From Candidatus Melainabacteria bacterium (lineage in GTDB: Bacteria; Cyanobacteriota; Vampirovibrionia; Obscuribacterales; Obscuribacteraceae): a stretch of DNA of 64,000 bases. The stretch covers positions 124,001 to 188,000 of the forward strand of contig DAIDIP010000001.1 in assembly GCA_027451745.1 (NCBI GenBank). Reading direction: 5' to 3'. The notes beneath the pieces were generated by a model, which was not told the DNA's origin, did no database searches, and saw nothing but the letters and a program-made list of their open reading frames with translations. Made by a program: the position numbers and the translations under genes. This document shows, piece by piece, positions 3,388 to 38,991 of this stretch; position 1 is the first letter of the stretch; every line of letters starts with the position of its first letter.

Positions 3388-3420
3388 GTACAGTGTTTAT
3401 CGATTTGCTGCTAATTATAA

Positions 3421-7486: not shown

Positions 7487-7939
7487 TCATTTCACGTGAC
7501 GAACAAGCGTGAACAGAAAATTTCCCATGCATGAACCGACAATGACACACGCGGAAACAATAATCAGAATCGCACCGACCCATGCCAACCAGGTGGCCCA
7601 GCGGACAGTTTTCTCGGTTTCCGCTTCTACTTGTTTCAGGCGTTCTTCCCAGCGCTGAGCCGCAAGATCCAGTTGTTTTTCAACATTATTCCCAGCGCAC
7701 AAGATCAGTTTTTCAGCAATAACCTCAGCGTTCTGCACTTGCTGTTCTGAAGCGGCAGTAAATTGATGAAGTGTCTCATCCAGATTCTTACGCATGAGAT
7801 GAACGTAGCTATCCAATGCGGTCTTATTTAAGAGGATTCCAGCATATATGGGATCATCCTTTTGAATCTGCTGTGCGAACGGCAGCCGCTGATTAATTTC
7901 AGCAAACAGTTCATCAATATCAAGCGTTTTATCCATCAA
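7487..7939 (-). CDS. traM: TraM-like conjugal transfer protein (RP4 Tra1 type)
   Basis: A 150-residue protein whose N-terminal stretch IDELFAEINQRLPFAQQI followed by DDPIYAGILLNK follows the start of RP4 TraM, which I recall as a Tra1-region protein of similar size encoded with traL and traK. The middle is a long helical, probably coiled-coil segment (about residues 45-115), and the C-terminus is a single membrane helix (WATWLAWVGAILIIVSACVI). It overlaps traL by four bases, so it is third in a traK-traL-traM transcript. Its biochemical role in RP4 is not well defined; it is an accessory of transfer. The identification rests on order plus N-terminal similarity. Confidence 0.75.
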   Translation of the reverse strand: MMDKTLDIDELFAEINQRLPFAQQIQKDDPIYAGILLNKTALDSYVHLMRKNLDETLHQFTAASEQQVQNAEVIAEKLILCAGNNVEKQLDLAAQRWEERLKQVEAETEKTVRWATWLAWVGAILIIVSACVIVGSCMGNFLFTLVRHVK

Positions 7940-8766
7940 ATCGCAATGTCTAGCTGTTCATAGATACTTCTTTCCACAATTTTAATGCGCTGCTTAGGCA
8001 TAAGGTGGAAAGCATCGCTTTGTAATGCTTCCTCAAACGTTAGATGCTGTTTCAACATAGTGTTAACATCCTTGCCGTAAGTATTCTCATTAAGTTTTGG
8101 CAGCCTGATAATGGCGATCACGCGGTGCCTATTGTCAATATAGGCCTTCATTTCCTCGAAGGTTTTACCGTTGAACTCAATAGGTCCAAGGTGTTCATTC
8201 AGCCATACAATAACGCTGACACCCTCTGGCAGTTGTGAAGTAAGAGCTGCAAAGTCACTTACTGTATTGTCTTGAGCTAAACCACCTGCAATGACGGAAT
8301 GGACTATAACTTGCTTGCCCGCTCTTTGGATGACGTCGAAGGCTTCATTGTCTATGAGGTAAGCGGACAGAGGCACATATGAAGCGGCTCCGTTATCAAT
8401 GATAACGTTGGAATCGCTTTTTATAATTTTCTCCATCATATTGTCAAAGCCACGCTCGTTGATCATATTATTGTCTTCCAGAAGCGCAATTGATTGCACA
8501 TGTAGAGCGGGGAAAGTGGAAAATGTTGCATTTATTGGGTCTGTGTCCAGGCAAAGCAAGTCAGGGTCTTGCCGTTTTATATACTGAGCAATCATGACGG
8601 AAATGAAACTCTTACCAATTCCACCTTTGCCTTGCAGCGTAATATGAACCTTTTTTATTGGTTGCCCGTTTCGATGTACCGAATCAATAAAGTTGCCTTG
8701 GATCTGGGACTCTGGGTCCTGGCTGGAACTTGACTGGTTTTCCTGTAGCTTTTGGTTTTTCGTCAT
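7936..8766 (-). CDS. traL: TraL-like ParA-family ATPase of the transfer region
   Basis: A 276-residue P-loop ATPase of the ParA/MinD superfamily. ITLQGKGGIGKSFISVMIAQ holds the deviant Walker A (GKGGIGKS), CLDTDPINATFS holds the ParA aspartate, and VIIDNGAASYVPLS is the Walker B region. These segments, and KSFEQ/KTFEEMKAY-type and TYGKD stretches further on, follow RP4 TraL closely. The first 37 residues are an extra polar extension. The start ATG at 8766 has AGGAGG seven to eight bases upstream, so the gene truly overlaps traK by 83 bases in another frame. In RP4 the TraL function is accessory to transfer. The role here is inferred from homology and order. Confidence 0.85.
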   Translation of the reverse strand: MTKNQKLQENQSSSSQDPESQIQGNFIDSVHRNGQPIKKVHITLQGKGGIGKSFISVMIAQYIKRQDPDLLCLDTDPINATFSTFPALHVQSIALLEDNNMINERGFDNMMEKIIKSDSNVIIDNGAASYVPLSAYLIDNEAFDVIQRAGKQVIVHSVIAGGLAQDNTVSDFAALTSQLPEGVSVIVWLNEHLGPIEFNGKTFEEMKAYIDNRHRVIAIIRLPKLNENTYGKDVNTMLKQHLTFEEALQSDAFHLMPKQRIKIVERSIYEQLDIAI

Positions 8767-9067
8767 TCGCAGGACCTCCTTGTCCTAATAATTCAGTAGC
8801 TTGTGCTCTTTCAGCGGGTTCAACAAATCCTTTGATTGCTTGATATTTTTTGCCGGACGACTTGCGTGCTGAATTGAAGTGCTTATGGACGTGGTTGGTA
8901 AACTGCCTATATGAGACCCCAGATAATGAATCTTTAACTCGCTGATACACAATGCTCATGGGCCAGCCTGCATCAAGCAGCTCTTTAATGGTTGGCAGAT
9001 TGGCAAGAAACGCGACGCGTCCAGTTCCCCAAGTAACACGATGGGAGCTATTTCTCAGTTTCTCCAA
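8684..9067 (-). CDS. traK: TraK-like oriT-binding protein
   Basis: A 127-residue basic protein. VAFLANLPTIKELLDAGW, then IVYQRVKDS and SYRQFTNHVHKHF, repeat the layout of RP4 TraK, which binds and wraps DNA at oriT and aids relaxosome formation. A proline- and lysine-rich tail follows. The likely start is TTG at 9067 (MEKLRNSSHR); the ribosome site in front of it (AAGGCGA) is weak. It is the first gene of a traK-traL-traM operon that reads away from the candidate oriT at 9345-9385, as in RP4. Upstream lie the repeat block at 9131-9181 and the phased motifs at 9209-9285, which could be its promoter control and binding sites. Confidence 0.8.
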   Translation of the reverse strand: MEKLRNSSHRVTWGTGRVAFLANLPTIKELLDAGWPMSIVYQRVKDSLSGVSYRQFTNHVHKHFNSARKSSGKKYQAIKGFVEPAERAQATELLGQGGPANDEKPKATGKPVKFQPGPRVPDPRQLY

Positions 9068-9130
9068 AGTTGCTTTCGCCTTTTATTGTTTGCCTACTCA
9101 GAGCGTATAACAATATAAACCAAGCTTGCA

Positions 9131-9181
9131 AAAGGCGCTTCCGGTTATAGATTCAGATACCGATTCAGATATGGATTCAGA
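9131..9181. promoter_or_regulatory. Iteron-like operator block upstream of traK (shared with trbB)
   Basis: Three copies of GATTCAG start at 9150, 9162 and 9174, exactly 12 bases apart. The whole 51-base block matches 43 of 51 positions of the block at 40014-40064 upstream of trbB, by my count. Each block ends about 50-65 bases before its gene start. The common repeat suggests a regulator that controls both transfer operons; no such regulator gene is recognised in the window. Confidence 0.65.
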
Positions 9182-9208
9182 TTAATAATTACAAGGAAGA
9201 TATTAGGT

Positions 9209-9285
9209 ATTGCAAGCTACCACCGACTATTGCAAACTTATACTTAATATCACAATCTAGTGCATAGTATTGCCATCTATTGCAA
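9209..9285. promoter_or_regulatory. Helically phased ATTGC(A/C)A motifs, candidate TraK-binding region
   Basis: ATTGCAA occurs at 9209, 9229 and 9279 and ATTGCCA at 9269, so successive copies are 20, 40 and 10 bases apart, close to whole helix turns. Weaker matches (ATCACAA at 9249, AGTGCAT at 9259) fall on the same phase. The array lies between traK and the nic-like site, which is where RP4 TraK binds its intrinsically bent target. The binding role is inference. Confidence 0.5.
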
Positions 9286-9344
9286 GGGCACGCGCTCGGT
9301 ATAAGTTTGTTGTATTTTGTCTAAGTTGGAATAAGATTTTGTTG

Positions 9345-9385
9345 GCAGGATGTGTGCTGTACCGGTACGCGACAAGTCGCATACC
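9345..9385 (-). other. Candidate origin of transfer (oriT): nic site plus TraJ-type inverted repeat
   Basis: On the minus strand CATCCTG (9352-9346) followed by C matches the IncP nic consensus YATCCTG|Y, placing the cut between 9346 and 9345. On the side away from traK, 11 bases from this heptamer, is an inverted repeat of 10-bp arms, GGTACGCGAC (9364-9373) and GTCGCATACC (9376-9385), with a 2-base loop and one mismatch. In RP4 the TraJ-binding inverted repeat sits just beside nic in the same relative position, with traK on the other side. The Tyr22 relaxase and TraJ-like protein encoded at 23.2-25.2 kb would act here. Confidence 0.75.
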
Positions 9386-9688
9386 AGTCCAATCACGGGG
9401 GAAGCTTACTTACAACTTCGTTGCTCGACGCGGCACAATACCCTACGAAAATTCACCAACGTAGCGTTAGCGAAGATGCCCTTCAGCATAAGCCGGTCGG
9501 GATTCAACATCAACATATAGAAGATATAGAGGGATGGCAACGATTCGTGAAAAATGCAATCACCCTCCTCTTAAGGCACACGCATCCGACAGATCATGAC
9601 TACTTCGTAAGCGTTCCAGGAAGCACATCTTTTGCAGAATAGATTTTCATTGTAGAAATAGCTGTGGCGGTTAGGCAGAGAGGTATAA

Positions 9689-10051
9689 GTGAAAACGAGC
9701 AGCAGAGATCCAGTAAAAGAGAGTTACTGGAGAGAGATAATTCAGCGCCAGAGGCAGAGTGGAAAAAACCAGACTCAATTTTGTAGAGAAGAAGGTTTAG
9801 CTGACGATAAATTTTCTTACTGGAAAAGAGCTTTACTCAAGCGGCAGAAAGAGAAGAAGCTTCCATCCATAGAAGGGAATAAAGTAGGGGTTCCATTTGT
9901 ACCTGTAAATATCCAAAGCAATTTAAGCTTTACCAATAAGGGGAATGTTGAACAGATAGAGATCAGCAAGATTGCTGTGCGAATCGCTGCCAATATCGAT
10001 AAAACAACATTGGCCTGCATACTTCAATCACTGGATAAATCGCAATGCTAA
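9689..10051 (+). CDS. tnpA: IS66 TnpA (small DNA-binding accessory protein)
   Basis: A 120-residue IS66 OrfA protein. The N-terminal region YWREIIQRQRQSGKNQTQFC followed by WKRALLKRQKEKK is the usual helix-turn-helix part that recognises IS ends; the C-terminal half is variable (FVPVNI is typical). It starts with GTG at 9689, preceded by GAGAGG. Its 3' end overlaps tnpB by seven bases, the normal coupled arrangement. IS66 elements need TnpA and TnpB besides the TnpC transposase for efficient movement. Nothing looks broken. Confidence 0.88.
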   Translation: MKTSSRDPVKESYWREIIQRQRQSGKNQTQFCREEGLADDKFSYWKRALLKRQKEKKLPSIEGNKVGVPFVPVNIQSNLSFTNKGNVEQIEISKIAVRIAANIDKTTLACILQSLDKSQC

Positions 10052-10485
10052 ATATTTCAGGACAGCAATTGCGTATTTTCCTGTGTACGACACCGACTGA
10101 CATGCGGAAAAACTCTAACGGGCTCACTGGAATAGTTAGAAAATCAATGATGCTTGATCCTCTCTCAGGTCATCTATTCATTTTTAAGAATCAACGCGGC
10201 GATAGATTGAAAGTACTCTATTGGGATGGAGATGGTATAGCCATCTGGTACAAGCAATTGCAGCGCGGCACCTTCCGCTTCCCAGACTTACAAAATTATT
10301 CCTCTGCCGGTCTAGAAATCGACCACTCCACCTTGCGCATGATCCTAGATGGCATAGACCTCTCAACTATCCGCCGTCAAAATCGCTTCAAAGTGAGCCC
10401 CGATAATTTCAATGCTCAAAACCCAGCCTTCACTAGAGGCGTCTACCAGCCTCTTGAACAAACTTTTCCAACTTCCATTGCATAA
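10045..10485 (+). CDS. tnpB: IS66 TnpB (Orf2) accessory protein
   Basis: A 146-residue IS66 Orf2 protein. It contains the family pattern TPTDMRKNSNGLTGIV, then GHLFIFKNQRGDRLKVLYWD and GIAIWYKQLQRGTF, in the normal order. The usual length is about 115 residues, so the tail after IRRQNRFKV is about 30 residues longer than usual and may be read-through into non-conserved sequence. It is the second gene of the element and is required with TnpA for transposition in this family; its biochemical function is not settled. Confidence 0.92.
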   Translation: MLNISGQQLRIFLCTTPTDMRKNSNGLTGIVRKSMMLDPLSGHLFIFKNQRGDRLKVLYWDGDGIAIWYKQLQRGTFRFPDLQNYSSAGLEIDHSTLRMILDGIDLSTIRRQNRFKVSPDNFNAQNPAFTRGVYQPLEQTFPTSIA

Positions 10486-10755
10486 TCCCCAAACACCAAA
10501 TATGGATTTTTACCAAAATCAGATGACAGATCCTACTGAAAACAACCATGTCCATATATAGCGTATAAGCATCGTTGTCATTAACACCTTTGCCTAGCCC
10601 CTCACCAACCCATATGTTCTTGACTGACCTTACCGGCTATTCCTAACCTCCATGAAACATAAAGTACGTTTTAAGACCCTCATATAAACCCTTTTAAACT
10701 TAAAAATCTTGACTCTTACTCATGACACCACTACCAGTGGCAGTATAATAACCTC

Positions 10756-12255
10756 ATGAGTATCAACGACTTACCTAAAGACCTAGACGCCTGCCACCAG
10801 CTAATACTTAAATTAGCCGCAGATAACGAACAACTCGGCCGCAGACTACAAGAATTACTAAGAAGCAAATTCGGCAAAAAATCAGAAGCCCTAAACCCAG
10901 ACCAACTCAACCTCTTCGCTAAAGAAATACTCGCCGAATACCAGGCCTCTCTATCAGAACAAAAACCACCCGCTTCTACAAAAGACAAAAAACAAACAGG
11001 CGGCGGTCGCAATATAAACCGCACAGAACTCCCTGTCGAAACTAAAGAATACAGGCTAGAAGATAACGCATTACCTTGCCCAGAGTGCAAACAACAAAGA
11101 CAAGAAATAGGCTACCAATCAGCTCAAGAACTAGAATTCATCCCTGCTACCTTCAAAATAATCAAACATGTCCAAGTTAAATATGCCTGCAAAAATTGCC
11201 AGGAACAAGTTGTCCTAGCTCCAAGGACAAACACCCAACCAATAGAAAAAGGTATGCCTGGCTTTGGCTTACTCGCTCAAATAATCACAAGCAAATACGT
11301 TGACCACCTTCCACTCTACAGACAAGAACAAATATACTGGAGGCAAGGTGCTGATATCGCACGCTCCAGCATGTGCCGCTGGCTCTCCGTCTGCTCAGAC
11401 AAACTAAAGCCACTAGCAGAATTGATGAAAACTAAAATTCTGCAATCAAAAATAATCAATGCAGATGAAACACCAGTTAAATTCCTGAAGCCTGGCGCCG
11501 GCAAAGCTCCTACCGGCTACGTCTGGACATATATCGGCGATAACGAAAATCCATACGTGATCTTTGACTTCCATACTAGCCGTAAATCTGAACATCCGGA
11601 AAAATTCCTGGATGGATACTCTGGCTACTTACAAACAGATGCTTACACAGGATATAACGGGTTGCATAAAGCTGGCAAAGTAAAAGCTGTAGCTTGCTTT
11701 GCTCATGCTAGAAGATATTTTGAAAAAGCTCTAAATAATGACAAAATACAAGCGGAAATTGCTTTAGCAAAAATAGCTGTACTCTACCAAATAGAAAGAA
11801 ACGCAGCTGAGCTCAGCGCAGAAGAACGCAAAAGCATCAGAGAGAAAGAATCTATTCCACGCCTACAGGAATTTAAAGAATGGCTGCAGCAAATGCAAAT
11901 TAAAACACTACCTAAAAGTAGTTTGGGTGAAGCAATAAATTATTCACTAAGCAATTGGGATAAACTGTGCAAATATACAGAGCAAGGATTCATATCAATT
12001 GATAACAACCTAGCAGAAAATAGCCTAAGACCAATTGCTCTAGGCAGAAAGAACTGGCTCTTCATTGGTGCAGAAGATAGCGGAGAAGTATTTTCTGTTT
12101 TAGCCAGCTTAGCTGCCTCATGCAAAAGACTCGGCATTGAACCATATAATTATTTCCGACATGTGCTTGAGCGACTGTCAGCTAAAGATTATTCTGACTT
12201 GGAAGATCTATTGCCAGATCAATTGGCTAAAATACCTGCCCAGGTCGCAGCTTAG
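10756..12255 (+). CDS. tnpC: IS66 TnpC DDE transposase
   Basis: The 499-residue catalytic transposase. A leucine-rich coiled-coil N-terminus (about 1-50) is followed by a zinc-finger-like segment with Cys pairs (PCPECKQQ and YACKNCQEQ). The catalytic core has Asp in NADETPVKFL, Asp in LQTDAYTGYNGL and Glu in NNLAENSLRPIALGRKNW, giving the DDE triad. An IS66 C-terminal domain ends the protein (about 455-499). Length is typical. It starts with ATG at 10756, after a small CCACT/AGTGG hairpin and TATAAT, 270 bases past tnpB, so it may have its own promoter inside the element. Confidence 0.95.
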   Translation: MSINDLPKDLDACHQLILKLAADNEQLGRRLQELLRSKFGKKSEALNPDQLNLFAKEILAEYQASLSEQKPPASTKDKKQTGGGRNINRTELPVETKEYRLEDNALPCPECKQQRQEIGYQSAQELEFIPATFKIIKHVQVKYACKNCQEQVVLAPRTNTQPIEKGMPGFGLLAQIITSKYVDHLPLYRQEQIYWRQGADIARSSMCRWLSVCSDKLKPLAELMKTKILQSKIINADETPVKFLKPGAGKAPTGYVWTYIGDNENPYVIFDFHTSRKSEHPEKFLDGYSGYLQTDAYTGYNGLHKAGKVKAVACFAHARRYFEKALNNDKIQAEIALAKIAVLYQIERNAAELSAEERKSIREKESIPRLQEFKEWLQQMQIKTLPKSSLGEAINYSLSNWDKLCKYTEQGFISIDNNLAENSLRPIALGRKNWLFIGAEDSGEVFSVLASLAASCKRLGIEPYNYFRHVLERLSAKDYSDLEDLLPDQLAKIPAQVAA

Positions 12256-12283
12256 CAACCTCGTGGAACGCTTACACTACTTC

Positions 12284-13390: not shown

Positions 13391-13409
13391 GTTTTTCTCG
13401 ATTATAAAA

Positions 13410-23200: not shown

Positions 23201-24898
23201 CTATCTACCTCGTGTTTCTTGACTTGAGTCGTATTTCGATTGCTTATTGTTTTCTATAGTTTCTTTGAGCCCTTTCCGACTGAGTTCTTTTACCATTACA
23301 TGACGTTGCCGATCTTTTTCTAATACTGGATCAGCAAAGCGAATGGACAGCCCCTCAAAGGCAGATAGTCTTGCTACGTGGAGCTTGAATTCATCCGAAC
23401 CTTCTACTATCACTGCTTTGCCGTGAAACCGCTCATCTGCCAGGGATAAGGCTAATAATGTGGCTGCTTCTGTTACTTGCGGTACGCTGATTGCAGTTGC
23501 CTCATCAGAAACGACACCACCATCCTGCGCCCGATAAATAACTTTGCCGTTTCGCAGAACGGTCGGTCTGAAGTGAGTCTTTATAATATCCCGCGCTTCT
23601 TCAAAACTTTCAATTGTCAACAATGTTTCGGAAATTTCTTTTCTATATGTTTTGCGTCTTCTGAGAATCCGCAATGCTTCGCTATCACCTTCTTCAGCAC
23701 GGCTGGCAAGAAACTCATCCCAGGTCTGCGTTGGCAATTCTTCTCGAATAGTCAACTTTTGTTCCCGCTCATACTGTTTCAACTGCACAAAATCTTTTTT
23801 CATTTCCTGAGAAAGCTCATGATATGCAGCTCTTTTTGTTCTTTTATCCATCACTATGTTCGATCTCACAGAGGCTCGCCTTTGACGGTACCAATTTTTT
23901 AGGTTAGCGCGCTTTTCGTTGTGTTCAGAGCGCAGTTCGGTTAATGCTTTTGTTCGCGCCTGGCAATTTATCTCTCGACCCTTTTTGAACTCTACATAAA
24001 GGGCACTCATTCCTGGCGGCTTTCCTAAACCAAGCTGATATTGCTTGTGAATTTTCTTTTTGTCTTGAGGCGACTGATATTCCCCAAAACGATCAGTCAA
24101 CGATTTGAAAGATAGTTTTCTATCTAAAGAACTGGCTTTAATTCCAACTTTGCCATCCAGTGTGGCAATTGCCAAACCAGCACCTCTAGGCTTAATTTCG
24201 GCACCATATGCACCGAACAAATCATGAACGTCTTGCCAGTGCTGAGCTTTTTGCAGCACTTCTTTCAGTTGGTCGCCGATGTTCTCATGCAGCCAACGCA
24301 AAAATGATTCTTCCTGCTGATGTACTTCCATCTCGCCAACTTTGGCAAAATGCTTTCCTTGTCCAATCCGGTTATCCTGGTACAGCCCGTGCTTGATCTC
24401 AAGCTCCTTCGCCAAATTATCCAACTTGTAATATGGATAATACGGCTCAATGCAATGGAAAGTTGTAGGATGGATTTTGTTAATTGCAATGTGTAAGTGA
24501 AAATGATCTGTATTCTGGTGCACAGCACTTATACGCTGATGATCTGAGAAACCTAAACCGGCACAAATAGTATCCTCTATATCTGCTGCTTGTTCGCGCG
24601 TCAAACTTTCCCAATGTGGTACCGAAACAACGAGATGGTATGTCTTGTCTGACTTCGTTCGTTTGTTTGCTGATTGTGTCGCCAGGACTTCCGCAATTGC
24701 AATTGCCGGTGTCTCTGATTGACAGTTGGAGATGCGATACCAGGCAACTTTCTCACCATCTCCCTTCACATCCATAACGTATTCGGCGGTGTGGGTAAAT
24801 AAGATAGGGCTGTTATGCTTGGCATTCAAAATATAACGCCCAAGCCGATCAAAACCGGATCGTTCACTTGTCTTGCGCTTGATTACTTTGATAATCAC
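23201..24898 (-). CDS. traI: MOBP relaxase of the RP4 TraI type, with LPD7-like C-terminal domain
   Basis: The 565-residue nickase that would cut oriT and lead the strand into the recipient. Motif I FDRLGRYIL has the catalytic Tyr22, the same position as in RP4 TraI. Motif III, VHQNTDHFHLHIAIN (residues 126-140), has the metal-binding His residues. A helical middle region (about 300-400) links to a domain with GKVIYRAQDGGVVSDEAT and LADERFHGKAVIVEGSDEF, which matches the LPD7 domain of mobile-element proteins. It overlaps traJ by four bases. RP4 TraI is longer, 732 residues, so the C-terminus differs. It reads toward the cargo, not away from oriT as in RP4. Confidence 0.9.
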   Translation of the reverse strand: MIIKVIKRKTSERSGFDRLGRYILNAKHNSPILFTHTAEYVMDVKGDGEKVAWYRISNCQSETPAIAIAEVLATQSANKRTKSDKTYHLVVSVPHWESLTREQAADIEDTICAGLGFSDHQRISAVHQNTDHFHLHIAINKIHPTTFHCIEPYYPYYKLDNLAKELEIKHGLYQDNRIGQGKHFAKVGEMEVHQQEESFLRWLHENIGDQLKEVLQKAQHWQDVHDLFGAYGAEIKPRGAGLAIATLDGKVGIKASSLDRKLSFKSLTDRFGEYQSPQDKKKIHKQYQLGLGKPPGMSALYVEFKKGREINCQARTKALTELRSEHNEKRANLKNWYRQRRASVRSNIVMDKRTKRAAYHELSQEMKKDFVQLKQYEREQKLTIREELPTQTWDEFLASRAEEGDSEALRILRRRKTYRKEISETLLTIESFEEARDIIKTHFRPTVLRNGKVIYRAQDGGVVSDEATAISVPQVTEAATLLALSLADERFHGKAVIVEGSDEFKLHVARLSAFEGLSIRFADPVLEKDRQRHVMVKELSRKGLKETIENNKQSKYDSSQETRGR

Positions 24899-25245
24899 AG
24901 ATTACTGGACTGTTCTATTACCAATTTTGCAATGACCATCTGCAAGTCTTCAATCTTATGCAGAAGTGCGCGCACATTGTTGATAGGAGCGCCCTCACCT
25001 TTCTTTTCAGATAACCAGAGCTTTAATAACCCGCCTAAGCGCCCTTGATCAGCATGTAATTTTGCAAGCTCTGCTATCGCTTCTCTATCAAAGGTACTTT
25101 TGGGTTCATAGCCATTCCCAAGACTTCGTAAAAACTCGGAATTCGATAGCCTAGTATTTTCTGCATTCACTTTGATCCTAGCTAATTCATGGTCATTGCA
25201 CCAGACCTCAATACGATTTTTTCGTGGACGGGTTCCTCGCGTCAT
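24895..25245 (-). CDS. traJ: TraJ-like relaxosome accessory protein (MobC/RHH type)
   Basis: A 116-residue protein. The N-terminal ribbon-helix-helix-like part is RIEVWCNDHELARIKVNAEN with SNSEFLRSLGNGYEP; the downstream ADQGRLGGLLKLWLSEKK is almost the sequence context of RP4 TraJ (GRLGGLLKLWL). TraJ binds the inverted repeat beside nic and brings in TraI. The likely target here is the inverted repeat at 9364-9385, some 15 kb away on this DNA. The gene overlaps traI by four bases. The ribosome site AGGGGGAAAA lies before the ATG. In RP4 it would be adjacent to oriT; here it is not. Confidence 0.88.
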   Translation of the reverse strand: MTRGTRPRKNRIEVWCNDHELARIKVNAENTRLSNSEFLRSLGNGYEPKSTFDREAIAELAKLHADQGRLGGLLKLWLSEKKGEGAPINNVRALLHKIEDLQMVIAKLVIEQSSNL

Positions 25246-25299
25246 GACTTAATTTTCCCCCTATGACATAAAACAGCTAAAGAGAACCTTTCACTTCAA

Positions 25300-27558
25300 T
25301 TACAAACTATTCACGCTTGCCGATTGGACAATTCCTTTTTCGAGTTCAGGACGATTGACCAATTGTTTCTCTGTTTTCTGATTCTGAATTTCGGCATTAG
25401 AGGCTAAGCTTGCCGCCATGACTTTTCGTTCAATGTTTTTTAGACCAACGCCTAATTCAAATTTCAGTTCGTCTGGTCCTTTAAGCTTTGCAATATCGTT
25501 CCAGTCACTTCCAGAAGCACCTGGTTCAAATTCAGGCAGCAAAACGTGTCCTCCGACAATCAAAGCAGCTTGTTCCGCTTTTTGCCGACCGACATTTTTA
25601 TCTATTGGTTTGCTGTGATCATTATCGCCAGCTAGGATGATCGTTTTCTCTTGATATTTCTCTCTGTAAGCTTGCGCAACCGTGGGAAGATTACCGGCAT
25701 TGAAGGCGACAACAACCGGCAGTCCGGTTGCCTCGTGCAGAGTTGCTGCTGTAGCATATCCTTCTGCTATTAGCATTTTATTGGACGATCCAATGGTTCC
25801 AAGCACATGATGTCCACCTAGCATCCGTCCACCACGAGGGAAAATTTTTCGCCCGCTATTATCAATGGATTGAGCGCCAAGCAGGTTTCCGTCAATGTCC
25901 TGAATGGGAACTAGTAGTTGTCCTTTTCCACTCCATTGTTGAGGCTTCTCGTTTGTCTTACTCCCAGTTAATTCAATTGGGCCAACTGTGTTTATTTTTA
26001 GGCCATACGCCTGAACACCTTTAGCTTTCAAATAGGGGTGCGTCTGCGCTGATTCGCAGTCTGCCAGAAGCTTTGCCACTGCGTCGGCAGTTTGCTTATT
26101 GACGCTATCTCGCTCTTTTTCTCTTGCTGATTTTCGATCCAGATTTTGTACTTCTAGTGTTACTATTTCTTTTGTGCTGATCGTGTTTTCCCGGCTAGTC
26201 GACTTCCATGTTTTTTCATAGCCGGTCTTATAATTGTGGATGTAACCGGCAGGGTGGCCATCGAGATAGCCAACATAAGCCCCGGATTTTTTCGCTCCGC
26301 TATCACCCTCGACCGGAACCCGATATAAGTTGCCGTCCATCTTTGGCATTTCATTTAAAATTAGCCCGGCAGCTCTAAGCGCTTCTGAAAATTCCACTTC
26401 TGGATTTTGTTTCAACTCAATATGCAACGGTTGTTTTGGTCCCATCCATTTTTTCAATGGTTCCAGTGCAATGCCTTCCGGTACATACCATGATTTTTCA
26501 ATGGGGTCCCATTTAGCACCTAATTTTTCAGCAGAATCTTTTTCTACATACGGCACTTCAAGATAAGTTTGTTGAGGATTGGTTCTTAGAGCCATATCAG
26601 TAGCAGAAGCCATAACAGGCATAAGAACTTGTTCGGTAATCTTTTGTTCTTCTATTTTTTCTTGGAGCATTTCTCGTCCATGGATATATTTCGTGATCCT
26701 TTCTGCGTCGGCAGTAGCCCGGAAAATCTCGCGTGGGTCTTCCTGCAATATCTTTATCCATGAAGCGATGTAGGCAACATGCTGTTCTGGATCATGACCG
26801 ATACCGAGCTGTTCACCGAGCATCAAAGAAGCGATTTCTGCACGCAATTCTTCTTTTGCGTATCCTTCTGAACCAAAAGGGTGTGCCAGATCACGATTTA
26901 AACGATTATGATGACCCGTCCAGTGCCCGAGCTCGTGCAAAGCCGTGGCGTAGAAACTATCCATTGAAGTGAATTGCGCGCGTTGCGGCAATGTGATGAT
27001 ATCAGTTGACGGACTATAGAAAGCTCGATTGCTTGGCTGATAATTGATATTAGCCAGAGAGTCATTTAGAATGGCTTCCGCCTGCTGATGTCGTTCCCAT
27101 TCTGGAAGAACTGGCTGCTGCTCCATTTCCGGCAGTCCTAATATCTGGCTGGCATTGAATACGGTGGCAGACCAAACTCTCGGCTTCTGCAAACGAACAG
27201 ATTGTCTTAACGCTTTACCGGAGTCGTCCGTCAAAGGTCTACCGTTTTCATCCACAGCATTAACGTCTTCAGTCCATTTCCAATATTGAATTTGAGTACC
27301 TTTTTCTCCGCGTTTAACCTGAGCATCAAGATTACCGGCCTGCTTGTATGTTAACCAGCGATTGTCAGAATACCCACGATCTTCCGTGACGCACATAAGC
27401 CAGACGGCATTCATGCCGTGATAGTCGTTTCCGGTGGTAGGGTTAAATGGCATAAAGCGCTCTCCTGCCTTCCAGGGTTTTATCCAAGGAGCAGTCCCCT
27501 TTTCCAGTTGACGGATAATAGAGTTTGCAACAGTTTCAACGTATTCATTAGAAGCCAT
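25300..27558 (-). CDS. traC: TraC-like DNA primase with ArdC N-terminus (ArdC-DUF5710-Toprim)
   Basis: A 752-residue multi-domain protein. Residues 1-300 are an ArdC/antirestriction module: [27 protein letters not shown] and a metallopeptidase motif HELGH (208-212). A DUF5710-like piece follows ([20 protein letters not shown], about 335-365), then a region with [18 protein letters not shown] and a Toprim-type primase end ([28 protein letters not shown]). RP4 TraC is a primase carried into the recipient to prime the complementary strand; ArdC-type domains protect incoming single-stranded DNA. Both jobs would suit early establishment. The upstream 63-residue gene overlaps its start by 11 bases. 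Domain calls are from motifs seen here. Confidence 0.85.
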
Positions 27559-27739
27559 TGTTATCCTCCTTTATGTCGGTTACGTCGATGTTTGCTTCCC
27601 AAGCATCGTCCTCGGAAAGCGCGGACTCTTCAAAGGCACCTAACGATTCTGCTTCATCAGGATCTAGCTCAATTTGAACACCGGGTATCTGAAAATTTTC
27701 AGTATCTAGACTTATTACTGGATCAAACTTAGGCCCCAT
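27548..27739 (-). CDS. Small acidic protein of the transfer operon, unknown
   Basis: A 63-residue strongly acidic protein (many Asp and Glu, e.g. [15 protein letters not shown]) with no recognised domain. The ATG at 27739 follows AAGGAGGAATT, an excellent ribosome site, and the 3' end overlaps traC by 11 bases, so it is translated with the primase. RP4 has a small traD gene next to traC in a comparable place, but I cannot claim homology. Confidence 0.7.
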
Positions 27740-27766
27740 AATTCCTCCTTTTTCACTGGTGTGAAA

Positions 27767-28381
27767 CTATTCAAATTGCAATTTGGCTGTGCCGGCATTG
27801 GCATCTGTGGGTTGATACTGTGAAATGTCTTGTGTATTGCTTGTAATTGGCAATTTCACCTGTCCATAAACCATTAATTCAGCGGTGTAGGGATTGATCA
27901 CCTCTTCTTTAGAAGTGACAATGTATATTGATGCAGGTAGGTAATAATATTTAGCGACATAGCCATTCTTGAAACCTTGCTGATAATTGCCAGTGTTATA
28001 GGCAGATAAAGCTGCTTTTAGAGCATCTTGACCCGGGCCATATCGTTTAATTGCACCACGATAACCGCGAATCAAGATCTTCGCTCCTGCTTGGATATTG
28101 ATAGCAGGATCAAAGGCTTGCTCTATTGTGATCCCCAGCCAAGGCAAATTTCGGCTATTGATTTGCATCAATCCGAGATCGACGCTATAACCCTTTGAAA
28201 TAAAATAACGTGCTTCTGCCGCGGCCTCTTTATCTGATCTTGGACAAACTCGTCTTTTAAACGGACCATTGATCCCTATAGCATATTGATTTCCGCCGCT
28301 TTCCACTTGAATAATGGCTGCAATGGTTTGCGGTGCTACATTAGGAGCGGACTGCTGCATCATATCGACAGACGGCATCAT
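27767..28381 (-). CDS. VirB1-like lytic transglycosylase (RP4 TrbN-like)
   Basis: A lytic transglycosylase of about 204 residues that opens the murein for the secretion channel. IAAIIQVESGGNQYAIG carries the catalytic Glu, DLGLMQINSRNL is the second SLT motif, and LSAYNTGNYQQG the third. The start is put at ATG 28381, because that codon overlaps the traF stop (ATGA) and GGAGG stands in front; the longer in-frame ATG at 28402 lies inside traF. I see no clear signal peptide at the N-terminus, which is unusual for this family and may mean another export path or a wrong start. It lies between traF and the small acidic gene. Confidence 0.82.
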   Translation of the reverse strand: MMPSVDMMQQSAPNVAPQTIAAIIQVESGGNQYAIGINGPFKRRVCPRSDKEAAAEARYFISKGYSVDLGLMQINSRNLPWLGITIEQAFDPAINIQAGAKILIRGYRGAIKRYGPGQDALKAALSAYNTGNYQQGFKNGYVAKYYYLPASIYIVTSKEEVINPYTAELMVYGQVKLPITSNTQDISQYQPTDANAGTAKLQFE

Positions 28382-28938
28382 TGTTTTAATCCTCCAATCC
28401 AAATTGGTTTTGCAGTGCCTATAATATTCGTAGTAGGAAGTGGGCCAAAATAACGACTGTCAAAGCTATGAGGATGGCTAGAAACAAGCCACACGGTGCC
28501 AGGGGCAACGGTATAAATACCTGCTTTCAAAAAAGGCATAGGACGACCGATACTATCTTCATTTAATGCCTTGCTGTTTGGAACGAGAACACCATTAATG
28601 GAGATTCCATCACTGGATATTGCAACGCGATCGCCGGCAATTGCCGCGACTGGTTTTAATAAAGATCCATAACCACCTGGATACAAGCCCCAGCTCAAAT
28701 AACGTCTTGAAAGGGCTGTTTTAAAGGTAGCGGTATCGGTGGGATAAATACTCACAATCTGCCCTCGTTGCACTGGTCCGGTTAAGGCAGTTACTTTCCA
28801 AAGACCTTCTGGGAGGGAAGGGGTTGAATTAAACCGAAGCCCTAGTTGCGAAGCTATAACGCAAGTGGTAACGAAAAGGAACAATGTGTAGAAACCTACT
28901 TTTGCCATATAATCTGAACGGTTATGAATTGGTGGCAT
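28378..28938 (-). CDS. traF: TraF-like S26 peptidase (pilin maturation)
   Basis: A signal-peptidase-like protein of about 186 residues. One membrane helix (YTLFLFVTTCVIASQLGL) is followed by the S26 Ser motif FNSTPSLPEGLWKV, the Lys motif GSLLKPVAAIAGDRV, and the SHPHSFDSRYFGPLP box of the TraF family. In RP4 TraF processes and cyclises TrbC pilin; a TrbC homologue is encoded at 38641-38979. The ATG at 28938 lies five bases after the traG stop, with GGAGG upstream; an ATG at 28908 is the alternative, and the longer open frame is inside traG. Active-site residues appear intact. Confidence 0.87.
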   Translation of the reverse strand: MPPIHNRSDYMAKVGFYTLFLFVTTCVIASQLGLRFNSTPSLPEGLWKVTALTGPVQRGQIVSIYPTDTATFKTALSRRYLSWGLYPGGYGSLLKPVAAIAGDRVAISSDGISINGVLVPNSKALNEDSIGRPMPFLKAGIYTVAPGTVWLVSSHPHSFDSRYFGPLPTTNIIGTAKPIWIGGLKQ

Positions 28939-28942
28939 TTGA

Positions 28943-30850
28943 TTAACTTGCCTCCAAATAGGTATGAATCGCAACTTGTAAGTTGTCTGTTTGCGTTGGG
29001 GCAGGTATTTTGGCTCGCTCTCTAAATTCTGGGTCTTGGAAATAAAGTATTTGCTTGCCGTAAATTGGAGAGAAACCAGCGGTAAAAATGAGCATATCAC
29101 CGGCTTTGAGAATGTAATCGCTGCCTTCCTTTCTCGTTGCCCCTGGTAAAGTCATGCATTCATCCGGTGTAAGCAATGAACGTCCTACAGAGTGTATGGA
29201 TTGGTTTACGTTCTGCAAGACTGCTCCAAATCTGTGCCCCGAAGTCGAAGTGTCCATTACAGAAACTGTTGTTGTGCCGACCATATCTGAGAGCCATTTA
29301 GCAGTTTCGGGTTTATTTGGTGCGTATGCTACTCGAATGTGACAATTTGACAATATACTTTCGTCATGACTATATGCGGCACGAAGCTGCGAAATATCTT
29401 GCATGATGAGATAGGCTTTAATTCCATAGCCCGCGATGAATGCTAGGGCTTCTTGAAAAACATCCAAACGACCGAACGAAGGAAATTCGTCGAGCATCAA
29501 TAGCAAACGATGCTTGTACCCTTTCTCCGACTGCCCATCTTTAAACTTCATTTCTTCACGAGTTAAAACGCGAACAATTTGATTGAGTAGCAAACGCATC
29601 AGTGGCTTAAGACGGTCTTTATCTGCTGGACGTACTACTAAGTAAAGTGACAAGGGCATCTCATTGTTCATAAGGTCATTGATGCTAAAGTCGCCTCTTG
29701 CGGTATTGGTGGCAACTAACGGATCGCGATAGAGCATCAAATAGGACATCGCAGATGAAAGAACTGAGCCACGTTCTTGCTCCGGGCGGTTCATCATGTC
29801 GCGAGCCGCTGCTGCAACTACCGGGTGCGGAATTTTCTGGCTCTTATTATTTGGATCGACGATATGCTTTGTTGTTAGCATCTCTTCATAGAGGTCGCTA
29901 ATTGGTCTTTTGGGGTCAGAGAGAGCATAGGCTACATCGTATAAGCAGGCTGTATTTAATTCTGCTTTTGGATTTTTCTTGAGCTTAGTGATGTTTTCAT
30001 TGCTCGCCTTATATAGCAAATGCAGCGTAACACCAGTTAAGAAGGCATGAGCCGTTTTTGTCCAGTGATCGTTTAGTCCTCTTCCATCAGGATCTACCAT
30101 AATGGTCACTAGATTTTGAACATCAGCGACTTCTGAGCTGCTTCCCAGTCGGATTTCCTGCAATGGGTTAAACCGGCAGCTTCCAGATTCTGCTGCTGGA
30201 TCAAATTTCAAGACCTTATTCTTGGCTTTCTTCTGACGCCAACCGGCAGTCAATGACCATAACTCTCCTTTCATATCGTGAACAACAACCGAATGCGGCC
30301 AAGAAAGTAATGTTGGTATGACTAAACCCACACCTTTACCGGAACGAGTCGGCGCAATAGCTGCAATATGTTCCGGTCCATTATGCCGCAAATAGCGGTG
30401 TACGCCGTCTTTGTCCTCCCAGGCGCCCACATAGACGCCTTCCCCTGCCTCTCCGGGCGGAGGAAGCAGCCCTGTTTTATAGATTTCGACTTCGCTGGCC
30501 CAGTGGGCTGTCCCGTGAATCCAGTTATGTTTTTTGGTACGTCTGGCTACAAAGCCGATAGTCAGTGAATAAACTAGAAGGGTTGTGATGTAGAGCACTA
30601 CAGAAACAACATAGGCGATATTCCAAGTTGTCTTGCCGTTTTCATAAGAGCGTATTGACCAGTCGATCCAGGCGAAAGGCGCATAACAATGCCCGAATAA
30701 TGGCTGCCCCAGAGTGTCTTGATAATCGAGCCTAGCAGCAAAGAATTGAGTGAAGGCACTGTTAATCAGGACCACTATAAAACAAAGAATGAGGATTCCC
30801 CATATCGGAGCTTGAGAGCGTGGAACATTGATTGACTGTGGATAAATCAT
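28943..30850 (-). CDS. traG: VirD4/TraG type IV coupling protein
   Basis: A 635-residue inner-membrane ATPase that hands the relaxosome to the mating channel; the length equals that of RP4 TraG as I recall it. Two N-terminal membrane helices (WGILILCFIVVLINSAFTQ and VSVVLYITTLLVYSLTIGFV) precede a Walker A APTRSGKGVGLVIPT near residue 170 and a Walker B LLLMLDEFPSFG; MQDISQL and the GHRF region complete the T4CP signatures. It overlaps trbI by four bases and traF follows after four bases, so it is translated with them. There is no sign of truncation. Confidence 0.95.
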   Translation of the reverse strand: MIYPQSINVPRSQAPIWGILILCFIVVLINSAFTQFFAARLDYQDTLGQPLFGHCYAPFAWIDWSIRSYENGKTTWNIAYVVSVVLYITTLLVYSLTIGFVARRTKKHNWIHGTAHWASEVEIYKTGLLPPPGEAGEGVYVGAWEDKDGVHRYLRHNGPEHIAAIAPTRSGKGVGLVIPTLLSWPHSVVVHDMKGELWSLTAGWRQKKAKNKVLKFDPAAESGSCRFNPLQEIRLGSSSEVADVQNLVTIMVDPDGRGLNDHWTKTAHAFLTGVTLHLLYKASNENITKLKKNPKAELNTACLYDVAYALSDPKRPISDLYEEMLTTKHIVDPNNKSQKIPHPVVAAAARDMMNRPEQERGSVLSSAMSYLMLYRDPLVATNTARGDFSINDLMNNEMPLSLYLVVRPADKDRLKPLMRLLLNQIVRVLTREEMKFKDGQSEKGYKHRLLLMLDEFPSFGRLDVFQEALAFIAGYGIKAYLIMQDISQLRAAYSHDESILSNCHIRVAYAPNKPETAKWLSDMVGTTTVSVMDTSTSGHRFGAVLQNVNQSIHSVGRSLLTPDECMTLPGATRKEGSDYILKAGDMLIFTAGFSPIYGKQILYFQDPEFRERAKIPAPTQTDNLQVAIHTYLEAS

Positions 30851-32094
30851 TCATCACTCCCATAAGCCAGATGCTCCGGCTGCCAGACCGGCAAGATCAT
30901 GTCTTTATTAATCAGCACATTAAAAACATAACCGGGGCGAATCTCAATTGTTGGAGGTTGATTCAAATTTCTCATAAGAGACTGCTGTCCCAGATTATTC
31001 ATTTGCATCCCCATTGCAGCAGCTATCATTTGTTGGCTCGAATAGCCGCCGTTGCTGGTCAGTGCTTGCGGCTGAGATAATTGAACACCTGCAGTTATAG
31101 CGGAAAGCATTATTGCGCTTCTAAATGCAGTCCAGAAATGTGTATTAGTTTTGTCCCCAAAGCCTGCATAGCCGCTTTGATCCGCTCCATTCATATTTTC
31201 AAGATTGACTGTGGATGCATCGGGATAGATCAGTCGGTGCCAGACGACAAAAACGCGCTTATGCCCAAGTGCCACTTGGTGGTCGTAATTACCAACTAAT
31301 TTAGAACCCTGGGGGATAAGTAAATATCGACCTGTGGCTGTGTCATACACATTTTGAGAGACTTGCGCCATGATTTGACCAGGCAAATCACTATTGATTC
31401 CACCCAGCATCACAGAAGGAATAACAGTTCCAGCTTTTAGTTCAAATGGTGAGACTGGTTGAACACGAGTATGTAAAACATAGCCTGCGTCCGTCTCCTT
31501 CGGGATGTTTACGGTTGTCCGCTGAGGTTGAAGAAAGTTCGTTTCTTCTTTCACGGAACCATATAACAACGGCTGGTGGTTTATGCTTGCCTGATTGTCT
31601 GTGTAAGTTGTTGTTTCGGCATTCAATGCATGTTTTAATTCGGCACGCTTGGCTTGTTCCAATTGGAGCTTTTCTTGTTCCCGTTGTTGCCACATTTGAA
31701 ATTCAGCATCTGCATAAGGGTCTCTGGCATTTGTAATGTCACCAGGAGGCGGTGGGGGCACCAGAAGTATGTTATTTTCTTTTGCCTTATTTAAGACGAT
31801 ACTTCTCGAACCCCCAATAATTCCGTCTCTTGGTTTTTTCTCTAAAAGAGGAATAACGTTTGTCAATGAATCATTTTGTTTGCCATCTTCTTCATTAAGA
31901 CTTTGGGCGACAATAGATTTCATGACAAGCGTATAGGTCATCACGCCAGCAACAATACTTAGACCTAATCCGACACAGATTAAAGGCTTCCTCCCAATTC
32001 TAACTACACCATCATTGGCATTAGCATTAGGTTTGTGCCCCAGATAATCAGGACTTTTAATTTCTGTTTTGGAAAAGGTCTGTCTAAGATTCAT
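30847..32094 (-). CDS. trbI: TrbI/VirB10 channel protein
   Basis: A 415-residue protein spanning the envelope. A cytoplasmic stretch, one membrane helix (GLSIVAGVMTYTLVMKS), a Pro-rich linker (VPPPPPGD) and a C-terminal OMC domain with LKAGTVIPSVMLGGINSDLPG, YLLIPQGSKLVG and FWTAFRSAIMLSAI are in the VirB10 order. The ATG at 32094 is chosen because MNLRQTFSK follows GAAGGCAG; the longer frame to 32196 lies inside trbG. It couples inner-membrane ATP use to the outer-membrane core. A 15-base tandem repeat overlaps its ribosome site (32099-32128). Confidence 0.92.
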   Translation of the reverse strand: MNLRQTFSKTEIKSPDYLGHKPNANANDGVVRIGRKPLICVGLGLSIVAGVMTYTLVMKSIVAQSLNEEDGKQNDSLTNVIPLLEKKPRDGIIGGSRSIVLNKAKENNILLVPPPPPGDITNARDPYADAEFQMWQQREQEKLQLEQAKRAELKHALNAETTTYTDNQASINHQPLLYGSVKEETNFLQPQRTTVNIPKETDAGYVLHTRVQPVSPFELKAGTVIPSVMLGGINSDLPGQIMAQVSQNVYDTATGRYLLIPQGSKLVGNYDHQVALGHKRVFVVWHRLIYPDASTVNLENMNGADQSGYAGFGDKTNTHFWTAFRSAIMLSAITAGVQLSQPQALTSNGGYSSQQMIAAAMGMQMNNLGQQSLMRNLNQPPTIEIRPGYVFNVLINKDMILPVWQPEHLAYGSDE

Positions 32095-32110
32095 ATTAAC
32101 TGCCTTCTCG

Positions 32111-33046
32111 TTAACTGCCTTCTCGAAGAATCTCAACACGTTCCTGACGACGACCAACCCCTCGAATAAGAGCCGCCTTGTCGATAATTTGATCAACTAC
32201 ATAACAGTCGTCCAACATGCGATAATTGACCATTTGCTTTTGATTTGCTGAGTCCAAAATAACCAAAGCAGGAACCTGTCCGTTCTTCACGCTTGCGGGA
32301 AATTGGATGTAAGTTTTGTCTTTATCTGAATAGACTCTAACTGGTTTCCAGTTAGTCGAATCACCCTTGATTCGATAATTGAAGTTCAATTCAGCGTTAG
32401 TCGGTAGTCCAGAGTAACTTACACTAGCTTTTAACTGCTGCTTCTTTTGCAGATCTTGATAAGAGTTCCACTGTGCCTGGGTATCCTCGGGGTAGGAAAA
32501 GGAGACAAGAGGCATCCACTGATCTTTCTTGCTTACTAGCCGTATGTTATAGCTTCTGCGATCTGTGTAAATAACTAAATTTGTGGATAGTCCAACGTCA
32601 GCAGGCTTGATAACTAAATGCGTAACAATGGTCTCGCCGCTGGAACTAGTACCAGGAGATACCTTCCATCTGCTTGAATCACCTAACATAACTTGCCGTA
32701 CTACTTCCCCCGGCTGTAAGGCAACATCGCAAACATATAAGGGGGCGCAAACAATTGATGGGAATGTGGCGCCATAGACGAACTGGATTGAACCGTCTTC
32801 GCCCAAGAAAGGCATTGTAGACTTATTTTTCCACTCCGCGGCAAGTGAAACACCTTTTTGTTGTCTTGGATCTAACTTGACCGTATCATTGGATAAAACT
32901 GGCACCGCAGGCACATATTTACTGATATAGCCCATTTGTCGAGTCGGCCATTGCTTTATGGCAGGTACTTCTTGAGCTAAAGCGCATGAGAAACTGTTCA
33001 GCGCTAACATGATACCGATAGTAGTGACACGAAAAGTCTTGGTCAT
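32111..33046 (-). CDS. trbG: TrbG/VirB9 outer-membrane core protein
   Basis: A 311-residue periplasmic and outer-membrane-core protein. A signal peptide (TIGIMLALNSFSCALA) precedes a VirB9 N-terminal domain with the pattern IQFVYGATFPSIVCAPLYVC, DVALQPGEVV and a C-terminal domain including NYRIKGDSTNWKPVRVYSD, YIQFPAS and MVNYRMLDDCYVVDQI. These match TrbG/VirB9 closely. It would form the core ring with VirB10/TrbI. The start overlaps trbF by four bases. Its last codons take part in the 15-base tandem duplication before trbI. Confidence 0.92.
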   Translation of the reverse strand: MTKTFRVTTIGIMLALNSFSCALAQEVPAIKQWPTRQMGYISKYVPAVPVLSNDTVKLDPRQQKGVSLAAEWKNKSTMPFLGEDGSIQFVYGATFPSIVCAPLYVCDVALQPGEVVRQVMLGDSSRWKVSPGTSSSGETIVTHLVIKPADVGLSTNLVIYTDRRSYNIRLVSKKDQWMPLVSFSYPEDTQAQWNSYQDLQKKQQLKASVSYSGLPTNAELNFNYRIKGDSTNWKPVRVYSDKDKTYIQFPASVKNGQVPALVILDSANQKQMVNYRMLDDCYVVDQIIDKAALIRGVGRRQERVEILREGS

Positions 33047-33774
33047 TTTCTTTCCTCCTTTATTAGCCTTTCGGACCAGTCGTAGTTCTTAATGTAGATA
33101 CCCATTGGATTGCGTAATAGTGTGGCTTCTTTTGTAGGCGGATCTATAGCTATAGTTATATTCGCCTGATACTCCGTGTTATTGACTATTTCTCCTTTGC
33201 TAGAATGTGTAGTTTCCTTCCATTGAATTCCCCAAGTATTGTCAGTAATTGGAATTACTGAACCAATCTGGACGCCTATGCCTTCAGATTTCGCACGTTC
33301 AAATGGATCATGATTAGCCAGGTATTCGTTTAACCTGACAAAAGCTGGATCTGTCCGGCGAAGCATTGCGTATGCGTATTCAATATTGACTCGTTCAGCA
33401 CTGGCGTCCTGATATACGCTACGCACATTCTCAATCCAACGGGCTAATTGAGCGCGTATTACTCGCGCATCCGGCTTTGCTGCAATATCGGCCCGCTGTA
33501 CTCCTACGGCAGAGCCAAGTTTGTCGACAGCTACAACGTAGGGCACAAACTTGCTCTGGCAACTGGTGTAAGCCATTCCAGCAGTACAAATTATGGAAAT
33601 CAAACCCATAATAAAAAATCCCATTTTCCAGGCGTGCTCGCGGGCTATATAGTCGCCGTACCGTTCATTCCATTCACGGCGACCTTCCAGATAGATACTG
33701 TGCTGATCAATAGCAGGAGCATTCTGTTGTTCCCAGGCTTTTATATGCGGGCTAATTTGTGTTGTCTGATTCAT
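33043..33774 (-). CDS. trbF: TrbF/VirB8 inner-membrane assembly protein
   Basis: A 243-residue bitopic protein with a short cytoplasmic N-terminus including YLEGRREWNERYGDYI, one membrane helix (GFFIMGLISIICTAGMAYT) and a periplasmic VirB8 domain (VPYVVAVDKLGSAV, VRSVYQDASAERVNIEYAYA, NPMGIYIKNYDWSERL). The family fold and length are normal. It nucleates the inner-membrane part of the channel. The gene overlaps trbG by four bases and follows trbL at 27 bases. Confidence 0.93.
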   Translation of the reverse strand: MNQTTQISPHIKAWEQQNAPAIDQHSIYLEGRREWNERYGDYIAREHAWKMGFFIMGLISIICTAGMAYTSCQSKFVPYVVAVDKLGSAVGVQRADIAAKPDARVIRAQLARWIENVRSVYQDASAERVNIEYAYAMLRRTDPAFVRLNEYLANHDPFERAKSEGIGVQIGSVIPITDNTWGIQWKETTHSSKGEIVNNTEYQANITIAIDPPTKEATLLRNPMGIYIKNYDWSERLIKEERK

Positions 33775-33801
33775 ACTCCGATTCCAATTTTATTTATGTG
33801 C

Positions 33802-35121
33802 TTACCCTTGCTCTTGTGCATAGATGCGATTGCCACCATTGCCGTTATTGCCAGATGAACTGGTTGCAGCACTAGCTGGCATCCCCTCACCTTGTCCTTC
33901 ACGAAGTTCTTTTAGTTTTGCCGCCGACTGTCTCATTGAATAGCCCATTTGTGCACCTATACTGCCATGTCGAATCTCGCCTCTGAAGCGCTGACCGAGA
34001 TTGCTGCCTAAATGTGATGCTGAGCCTTTCATGGCTTCACCTGTCAATGCTGCCAAATGAGAATGAGTAGACCTACGTTGATAACTCTGATCGGATTTCA
34101 GCATTTCTGATGCTAAACTATAGCCGCCGTGTGCAGCAGAAGCTGCGCCAGCAATTCCTGTAGCACCGCCTGCCGCTATTCCAGCAGAAACCGCGGCCAT
34201 AGTGCCAATTGCTTCGGCAACCATGCCACTTAATGCACCTCCTGTCGCCAATGAAGACCCATTAATTAGTCCCTGCACCATGTCAGGAATAGCTTTGGTA
34301 ATCACCACAAATACTATTGATGCTGCCGCAATCATCAAAACATCGTCGGTACCAAAGTTTGTTGTCTGCATTTGTGTGGCCCAGTCCTGTATTATCGATT
34401 GACCAAGACCGATCACTAATTGCACCATGAAGAGCTTAGCCCCTACTGATACGGCATACCGAATGGTATTAATGGCGAACTGATTAGTCCACTGTGAGCC
34501 ACCAAAACCCATTAAGATGACACCAGAGGAAATTATGAAGTAGCTTTCAACCAGAGCTATGATCATTAAAGCGGTCATAAACGCAAAAGAAATTAAAATA
34601 ACCAGAGCCGCAAGCGCAATGATCATGCTATCACCTGGGTCCCACAAGCTCATCGATGCTACCACCTGTTTGAGAATCAGCCACCCAGCATCCAACACAT
34701 TTGAGGGAGCGATGCCACCGGTTCCGCCGGCAGCCGAAACGGCAGCGCTTCCAGCTTGCCGGAAGCTGTTCACAATGGCTGTCGACCAAGCTGAAGAATT
34801 CAGTAAAAGAGTAAGAAAAAATCCTATATATAAAATTCTATTGAGAAGTTCGGCCAAAAACTCGCTGAGATCAGCTCCTTTAATCGCTAATTTAAGTGAA
34901 CTCCAAATAAATTCAATTATCGCCAAAGTCCAAAACAGATTCAGTGCAAAGTTTTGGAGCACTCCTTCCCAGGCACTTGTTTTTGATTGATAAGTGTCTA
35001 CTACTTGATCGAGAAAGTTATTTGTGGCTAGGGCGTGCGATGCTGGAACAGCTGCGATTAGCGCAAGCAATAATGATGTACCATAAAGACAAGTGAGAAA
35101 ATATACTGATCGCTTTTTCAT
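33802..35121 (-). CDS. trbL: TrbL/VirB6 polytopic membrane protein
   Basis: A 439-residue inner-membrane channel protein. A signal-like first helix is followed by five or more hydrophobic segments (LFWTLAIIEFIWSSLKLAI, ILYIGFFLTLLLNS, MIIALAALVILISFAFMTAL, IISSGVILMGFGGSQWTN, VLMIAAASIVFVVITKAI), a small-residue region (GIAAGGATGIAGAASAAHGG) and a hydrophilic C-terminal tail. FFLTLLLNSSAWSTAIVNSF and the GGS-W motif fit TrbL. It is the least conserved part of T4SS, so the call rests on topology and order. Confidence 0.9.
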   Translation of the reverse strand: MKKRSVYFLTCLYGTSLLLALIAAVPASHALATNNFLDQVVDTYQSKTSAWEGVLQNFALNLFWTLAIIEFIWSSLKLAIKGADLSEFLAELLNRILYIGFFLTLLLNSSAWSTAIVNSFRQAGSAAVSAAGGTGGIAPSNVLDAGWLILKQVVASMSLWDPGDSMIIALAALVILISFAFMTALMIIALVESYFIISSGVILMGFGGSQWTNQFAINTIRYAVSVGAKLFMVQLVIGLGQSIIQDWATQMQTTNFGTDDVLMIAAASIVFVVITKAIPDMVQGLINGSSLATGGALSGMVAEAIGTMAAVSAGIAAGGATGIAGAASAAHGGYSLASEMLKSDQSYQRRSTHSHLAALTGEAMKGSASHLGSNLGQRFRGEIRHGSIGAQMGYSMRQSAAKLKELREGQGEGMPASAATSSSGNNGNGGNRIYAQEQG

Positions 35122-35148
35122 GATAAAGACCTGCCTTGCGTACTGAAC

Positions 35149-38320: not shown

Positions 38321-38349
38321 AATCCCGTTGGTCCTCCGTTAATTCTCAG

Positions 38350-38637: not shown

Positions 38638-38640
38638 TTG

Positions 38641-38979: not shown

Positions 38980-38991
38980 TTTCTCTCCTTC

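Follow-up and report, generated by a model that had tools for sequence, protein, structure and literature searches.

The window analyzed here (a stretch of DNA of 64,000 nucleotides) carries, with a probability of roughly 0.87 as judged from sequence comparison, the oriT of an integrated conjugative element of the IncP/RP4 type (MOBP, T-type T4SS), whose traJ-traI genes have been inverted away from it. This reading is carried by the homology, geometry, gene order, uniqueness and conservation of the site; binding by TraJ and TraK, nicking by TraI, the direction of transfer and transfer itself are inferred by analogy. As a prediction, an RP4-type oriT is new for the host lineage; the type of site is a known one, and its split arrangement is unusual. 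An earlier note had reconstructed an RP4-type oriT at 9345-9385 beside traK. The order of traK, nic and repeat given there was correct; the extent was too short, as the core covers about 9338-9396.

Structure of the oriT core

The core comprises the following features (^ marks the predicted nick).

about 9338..9396, minus strand: conserved oriT core, 56/59 identical to the core of a second element; flanks 37/55 and 32/93
9345..9352, minus strand: nic region, CATCCTG^C, with the TraI cut predicted at 9346/9345; ATC(C/T)TG^C at the matching place in 12 plasmid homologues
9354..9395, minus strand: imperfect inverted repeat of the TraJ type, with arms at 9395-9376 and 9373-9354 and a TT loop at 9375-9374

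CATCCTG is found on the minus strand at 9352-9346, which confirms from the sequence the position of the nick proposed earlier, between 9346 and 9345. The earlier note was also right about the 10-bp arms and the 2 bases between them: GGTATGCGAC (9385-9376) and GTCGCGTACC (9373-9364), separated by TT (9375-9374), pair by nine Watson-Crick pairs and one G-T pair. They belong to a longer imperfect inverted repeat, with 20-nt arms and a 2-nt loop, of which they form the inner half. The repeat stops exactly 8 nt ahead of the predicted nick, the spacer being ACATCCTG, and the minus strand from 9395 to 9345 reads TGATTGGACTGGTATGCGAC-TT-GTCGCGTACCGGTACAGCAC-ACATCCTG^CC. The geometry of RP4 is a repeat of the 19-bp type with 8 bp to nic (PMC7314908), and the imperfect repeat of the window oriT, of this type (~19 bp), is likewise separated from nic by 8 bp; CATCCTG^C (9352-9345, minus strand) agrees with the nic consensus YATCCTG^Y. 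IncP oriTs lie between divergent traJ and traK operons; in the window the traK side of this arrangement is present and the traJ side is not. In its outer part, the repeat is weaker than those of pSRRSH1521 and similar plasmids.

Uniqueness of the site

The nic heptamer by itself is uninformative, with three copies of CATCCTG in the window versus about seven expected by chance. The hairpin was not matched in any of 2000 base shuffles (p=0.0005), and its folding energy as single-stranded DNA was -12.2 kcal/mol (z=-3.1), with 0/200 shuffles as good. A position matrix derived from proteobacterial oriTs was scanned over the 281-kb contig; the window unit scored 33.6 bits, compared with 21.4 bits for the best unrelated site and a maximum of 17.1 bits over 20 shuffled 281-kb contigs.

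A profile was then built from 12 proteobacterial IncP-like oriTs, none from the host genome. The 12 plasmid loci came from DNA matches, TraI matches and R751, and the traK-traJ interval was taken from each. ATC(C/T)TG^C was found in the equivalent position in all 12 intervals. A significant stem was found in 11 of the 12 loci; the exception, the Acidisoma plasmid, has the nic but yielded no significant stem in this search. By the stem scoring used, then, not every homologue has the hairpin. RNAalifold returned no consensus pairs on the oriT alignment because loop lengths differ among oriTs; the profile therefore holds sequence information only, and stems were assessed in scoring runs of their own. 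The profile was searched against a set made up of the window, the second-element locus and a locus on contig C39 (99 kb together), and gave matches at the window site (E=1.1e-6), the second element on contig C1 (E=3.3e-7) and C39 (E=4.5e-6). Only these three sites were found when the profile was searched against the 3.0-Mb genome, where the next best hit had E=0.3. The exact oriT core pattern had no match in IMG/VR.

Relaxosome and transfer genes

The genes on both sides of the oriT are as follows.

9068..9344, minus strand: nic-to-traK leader, putative TraK-binding region, with 10/20-bp phased repeats
8684..9067, minus strand: traK (Pfam DUF5338, E=3.7e-6; 33% over 49 aa with R751 TraK, E=7e-8)
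7936..8766, minus strand: traL, ParA-like ATPase (NCBIfam PRK13886 TraL, E=1.6e-89, below the curated cut-off)
7487..7939, minus strand: traM-position gene, named by position and size alone; no family match
23201..24898, minus strand: traI, MOBP relaxase (NF041893, 436.8 bits, cut-off 250)
24895..25245, minus strand: traJ, NikA-like DNA-binding protein (PF21983, E=4.3e-14; PRK13877 TraJ, E=8.9e-24, below the curated cut-off)
25300..39963, minus strand: transfer block, with traC-like primase/ArdC, lytic transglycosylase, traF, traG, trbI, trbG, trbF, trbL, trbJ, trbE, trbC-like and trbB

The self-match excess of the leader at lags 10/20/30 was 0.091, a value reached by only 0.1% of random contig 280-mers. 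Phasing at the 0.2% level or better was found in 16 of 18 oriT leaders, R751 and Comamonas being the exceptions, and the periodicity of the window leader is weaker than that in C39 or the 72-kb plasmid of Vampirovibrio chlorellavorus. Because the leader of RP4 contains an intrinsically curved stretch of some 200 bp to which TraK binds (PMC7314908), the phased repeats may plausibly be a signature of TraK binding or wrapping.

In TraI, Tyr22, His127, His134 and His136 are invariant among homologues; the NF041893 score, Tyr22 and the retained HxH motif place the protein among the TraI/MobA(P) relaxases (MOBP). Sequence comparison of TraI with solved structures gave no match at E<=0.001. In the transfer block, traG, traF, trbE and trbB were tested by family, and all four products match IncP-type families; the other genes were assigned by position and size. 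All examined transfer genes have open reading frames. The RP4-type assignment in the earlier note is borne out by the profile made without the host genome, by the gene order of the sibling element, by the V. chlorellavorus units, and by the matches of TraI (above the NF041893 cut-off), TraJ, TraK and TraL. That note rightly placed traJ and a traI with Tyr22 and HxH in the same element, but did not mention that they lie 14 kb away in inverted orientation.

A second enolase gene (44721-46055; 55% identical to the enolase of contig C3) is located between trbB and tRNA-Val, beside two MutS-like genes and a dynamin-like gene, and could be element cargo. The tRNA-Val gene is at 48109-48183; the right end of the window element may lie there or nearer 40 kb.

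Separation of traJ-traI from the oriT

Two further features bear on the gene order.

25277..25321, no strand: junction of the inverted traJ-traI block against the traC-like gene; partner breakpoint after 9432
9607..12275, plus strand: IS66-family insertion, termini GTAAGCGTTCC / GGAACGCTTAC, three-gene layout

The second element on C1 has its oriT at C1:50795-50838, in the textbook order traM-traL-traK, oriT, traJ-traI. Its oriT block (C1:50764-50895) matches window 9307-9432 in (+) orientation, and its segment from the traJ leader to traI (C1:50921-52943) matches window 25276-23256 in (-). These opposite directions indicate that traJ-traI was inverted or relocated; in the window the two genes sit 14 kb from the oriT, inverted, within one element. 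One breakpoint falls no more than 25 bp past the downstream end of the oriT block; the other lies at 25277-25321 by the traC-like gene. Since the relatives show the unsplit order (traK, oriT, traJ-traI), comparison of gene orders identifies it as ancestral and the split as a derived rearrangement. Because the two elements carry different cargo between oriT and traI, a single inversion and a relocation look alike here. In the window, this interval (12527-22974) contains several RND efflux, UspA-like and two-component genes, parts of which recur at C1:230699-236523 with 71-76% identity.

The IS66 insertion point is 0.25 kb from the oriT core and is flanked by an 8-bp target duplication, ACTACTTC, at 9599-9606 and 12276-12283. 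IS66 was considered as the cause of the split and rejected, as the clean duplication lies inside an already rearranged stretch; it is a separate, later insertion beside the oriT.

The core was conserved (56/59) while its flanks, TraJ (69% identical to that of the second element) and TraI (70%) diverged, which would imply continued selection and use of the oriT. In RP4 mobilisation, the oriT works with TraI supplied in trans; because TraI can act in this way, the position of oriT between the two operons is usual and not required. The traJ promoter of RP4 lies in the oriT, and TraJ represses traJ. In the window element this coupling is broken, so traJ-traI is probably transcribed by read-through from the traC-side operon, as suggested by orientation and spacing.

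Related sites in the genome and in other bacteria

Identical 45-bp direct repeats (C1:40270-40314 and 78770-78814) flank the second element and resemble the 3' part of tRNA-Val; a tyrosine integrase gene follows each (C1:40516 and 79122). This layout suggests a tandem arrangement of the two conjugative elements on C1. The ends of C1 (1-105 and 281287-281392) are inverted copies, 99% identical over 106 bp, and this repeat perhaps stopped the assembly. The third oriT is solitary (C39:5304-5349), accompanied by a truncated traJ remnant, and may be mobilised in trans. Near it are a type I restriction-modification locus and, at 2910-4603, genes resembling AbiEi/AbiEii; these names were all assigned by eye.

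The repeat and nic unit is present in 3/3 TraI loci of V. chlorellavorus and in 65 of 80 TraI loci of named genomes, on the opposite strand and 412-618 bp upstream of traI; several of the other 15 loci are short contigs. Three of the 65 are Nitrospira loci, so an RP4-type oriT outside Proteobacteria is not unique to this host. Eight TraI sequences were used to search the genome contigs. No full-length TraI of this kind was found in the other 49 family genomes searched, and elsewhere in the class sample such a TraI was limited to two Vampirovibrio genomes; one other genome gave a weaker match (E=8e-37). A literature search found no paper linking Obscuribacter with integrative conjugative elements. 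Kinship searches place the host, a non-photosynthetic relative of cyanobacteria, in the class Vampirovibrionia (Cyanobacteriota), to which V. chlorellavorus also belongs, in agreement with the earlier suggestion of a host outside Proteobacteria. Its family, whose genomes range from 2.3 to 9.2 Mb, is probably Obscuribacteraceae. The description of the site as a rare mapped oriT goes too far and is right only in part: such sites also occur in V. chlorellavorus and Nitrospira, and the present one is predicted rather than mapped.

Alternative explanations

The displacement of traJ-traI could mean that the element is decaying, and the oriT would then be a once functional RP4-type site left behind when the operon moved, with transfer poor or dependent on the sibling. 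The inversion over 14 kb, the IS66 insertion 0.25 kb from the core, the solitary oriT with its broken traJ on C39, and a leader periodicity below that of C39 and the V. chlorellavorus 72-kb plasmid are consistent with such a relic, whereas a core kept at 56/59 between diverged flanks, open transfer genes and retained catalytic residues of TraI argue for a functional site; we consider a relic unlikely. The split could instead be an artefact of assembly between two homologous elements whose true order is the usual one, since the contig is a draft containing two related elements in tandem. Short-read misjoining is unlikely because the elements differ by about 25-30% in DNA; traJ-traI (25245-23201) is a separate set, sharing only 70% identity with the copy in the sibling, and the target duplications of IS66 are intact. 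An artefact is thus very improbable. A chance coincidence of motif and hairpin, to which the expected seven heptamers in the window might point, was ruled out by the profile and synteny tests: the independent profile gave E=1.1e-6, the matrix score of 33.6 bits exceeds the shuffled maximum of 17.1 bits, and the unit is syntenic and conserved in relatives, leaving this explanation with a negligible probability.

Proposed function and significance

In the RP4 model, TraJ binds the repeat and TraK the leader, TraI nicks and keeps the 5' end, and TraG couples the complex to the channel (PMC7314908). If the window site is an RP4-type oriT with displaced traJ-traI, TraJ would occupy the repeat (9395-9354), and TraK would bind and bend the phased-repeat leader toward traK. 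Tyr22 of TraI would cut the minus strand at 9346/9345 and remain on the new 5' end, and the strand would exit by its 5' end via TraG and the Trb channel, led by the traK-traL-traM side. In this element TraI and TraJ would act on the oriT at a distance, and the RP4-like oriT promoter would no longer drive traJ. Tentatively, the three nearly identical RP4-type oriT cores could form a cross-mobilising set, one of which is selected even though its relaxase operon was inverted away, with relaxase expression freed from oriT control. The window site and the sibling oriT have identical right repeat arms, from which cross-recognition is predicted. The element also shows an IncP-type transfer origin that has retained its core after the relaxase operon moved off.

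Genetic tools are almost lacking for Vampirovibrionia; the predictions provide oriT coordinates for conjugative elements of this class, and the oriT/TraI/TraJ set is a candidate tool. For Vampirovibrionia, it has been proposed that a T4SS transfers DNA into algae (PMC4451040).

Comparison with known systems

Like the oriT of the IncP-1 plasmids RP4 and R751, the window oriT has a ~19-bp imperfect repeat, an 8-nt spacer and a YATCCTG^C nic, with traK on the nic side and a set of TraK-TraL-TraM and TraJ-TraI proteins (PMC7314908, PMC2848598). The nic region of R751 reads CACACATCCTG^CCCGCC. The repeat sequence differs from theirs, as it does between IncP subgroups; RP4 and R751 have traJ on the repeat side, whereas traJ-traI of the window is away from the oriT, and the window element is located in the chromosome and has a tyrosine integrase. 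The nearest DNA match is with pSRRSH1521-type and Rhodospirillum rubrum plasmids (85.7% over 49 bp), which share GTACCGGTAC in the repeat and CACACATCCTG^CC with the window oriT; however, their TraI is only about 35% identical and their flanks are unrelated. A T-type T4SS has been reported for the V. chlorellavorus plasmids (PMC4451040), and the main text of that report does not mention an oriT. The plasmids of V. chlorellavorus NCIMB 11383 come from the host's class, encode the closest named TraI (42-47%) and carry a traK, oriT, traJ-traI unit; they differ from the window element in a nic region of CTGTCCTG^CC and in their usual gene order.
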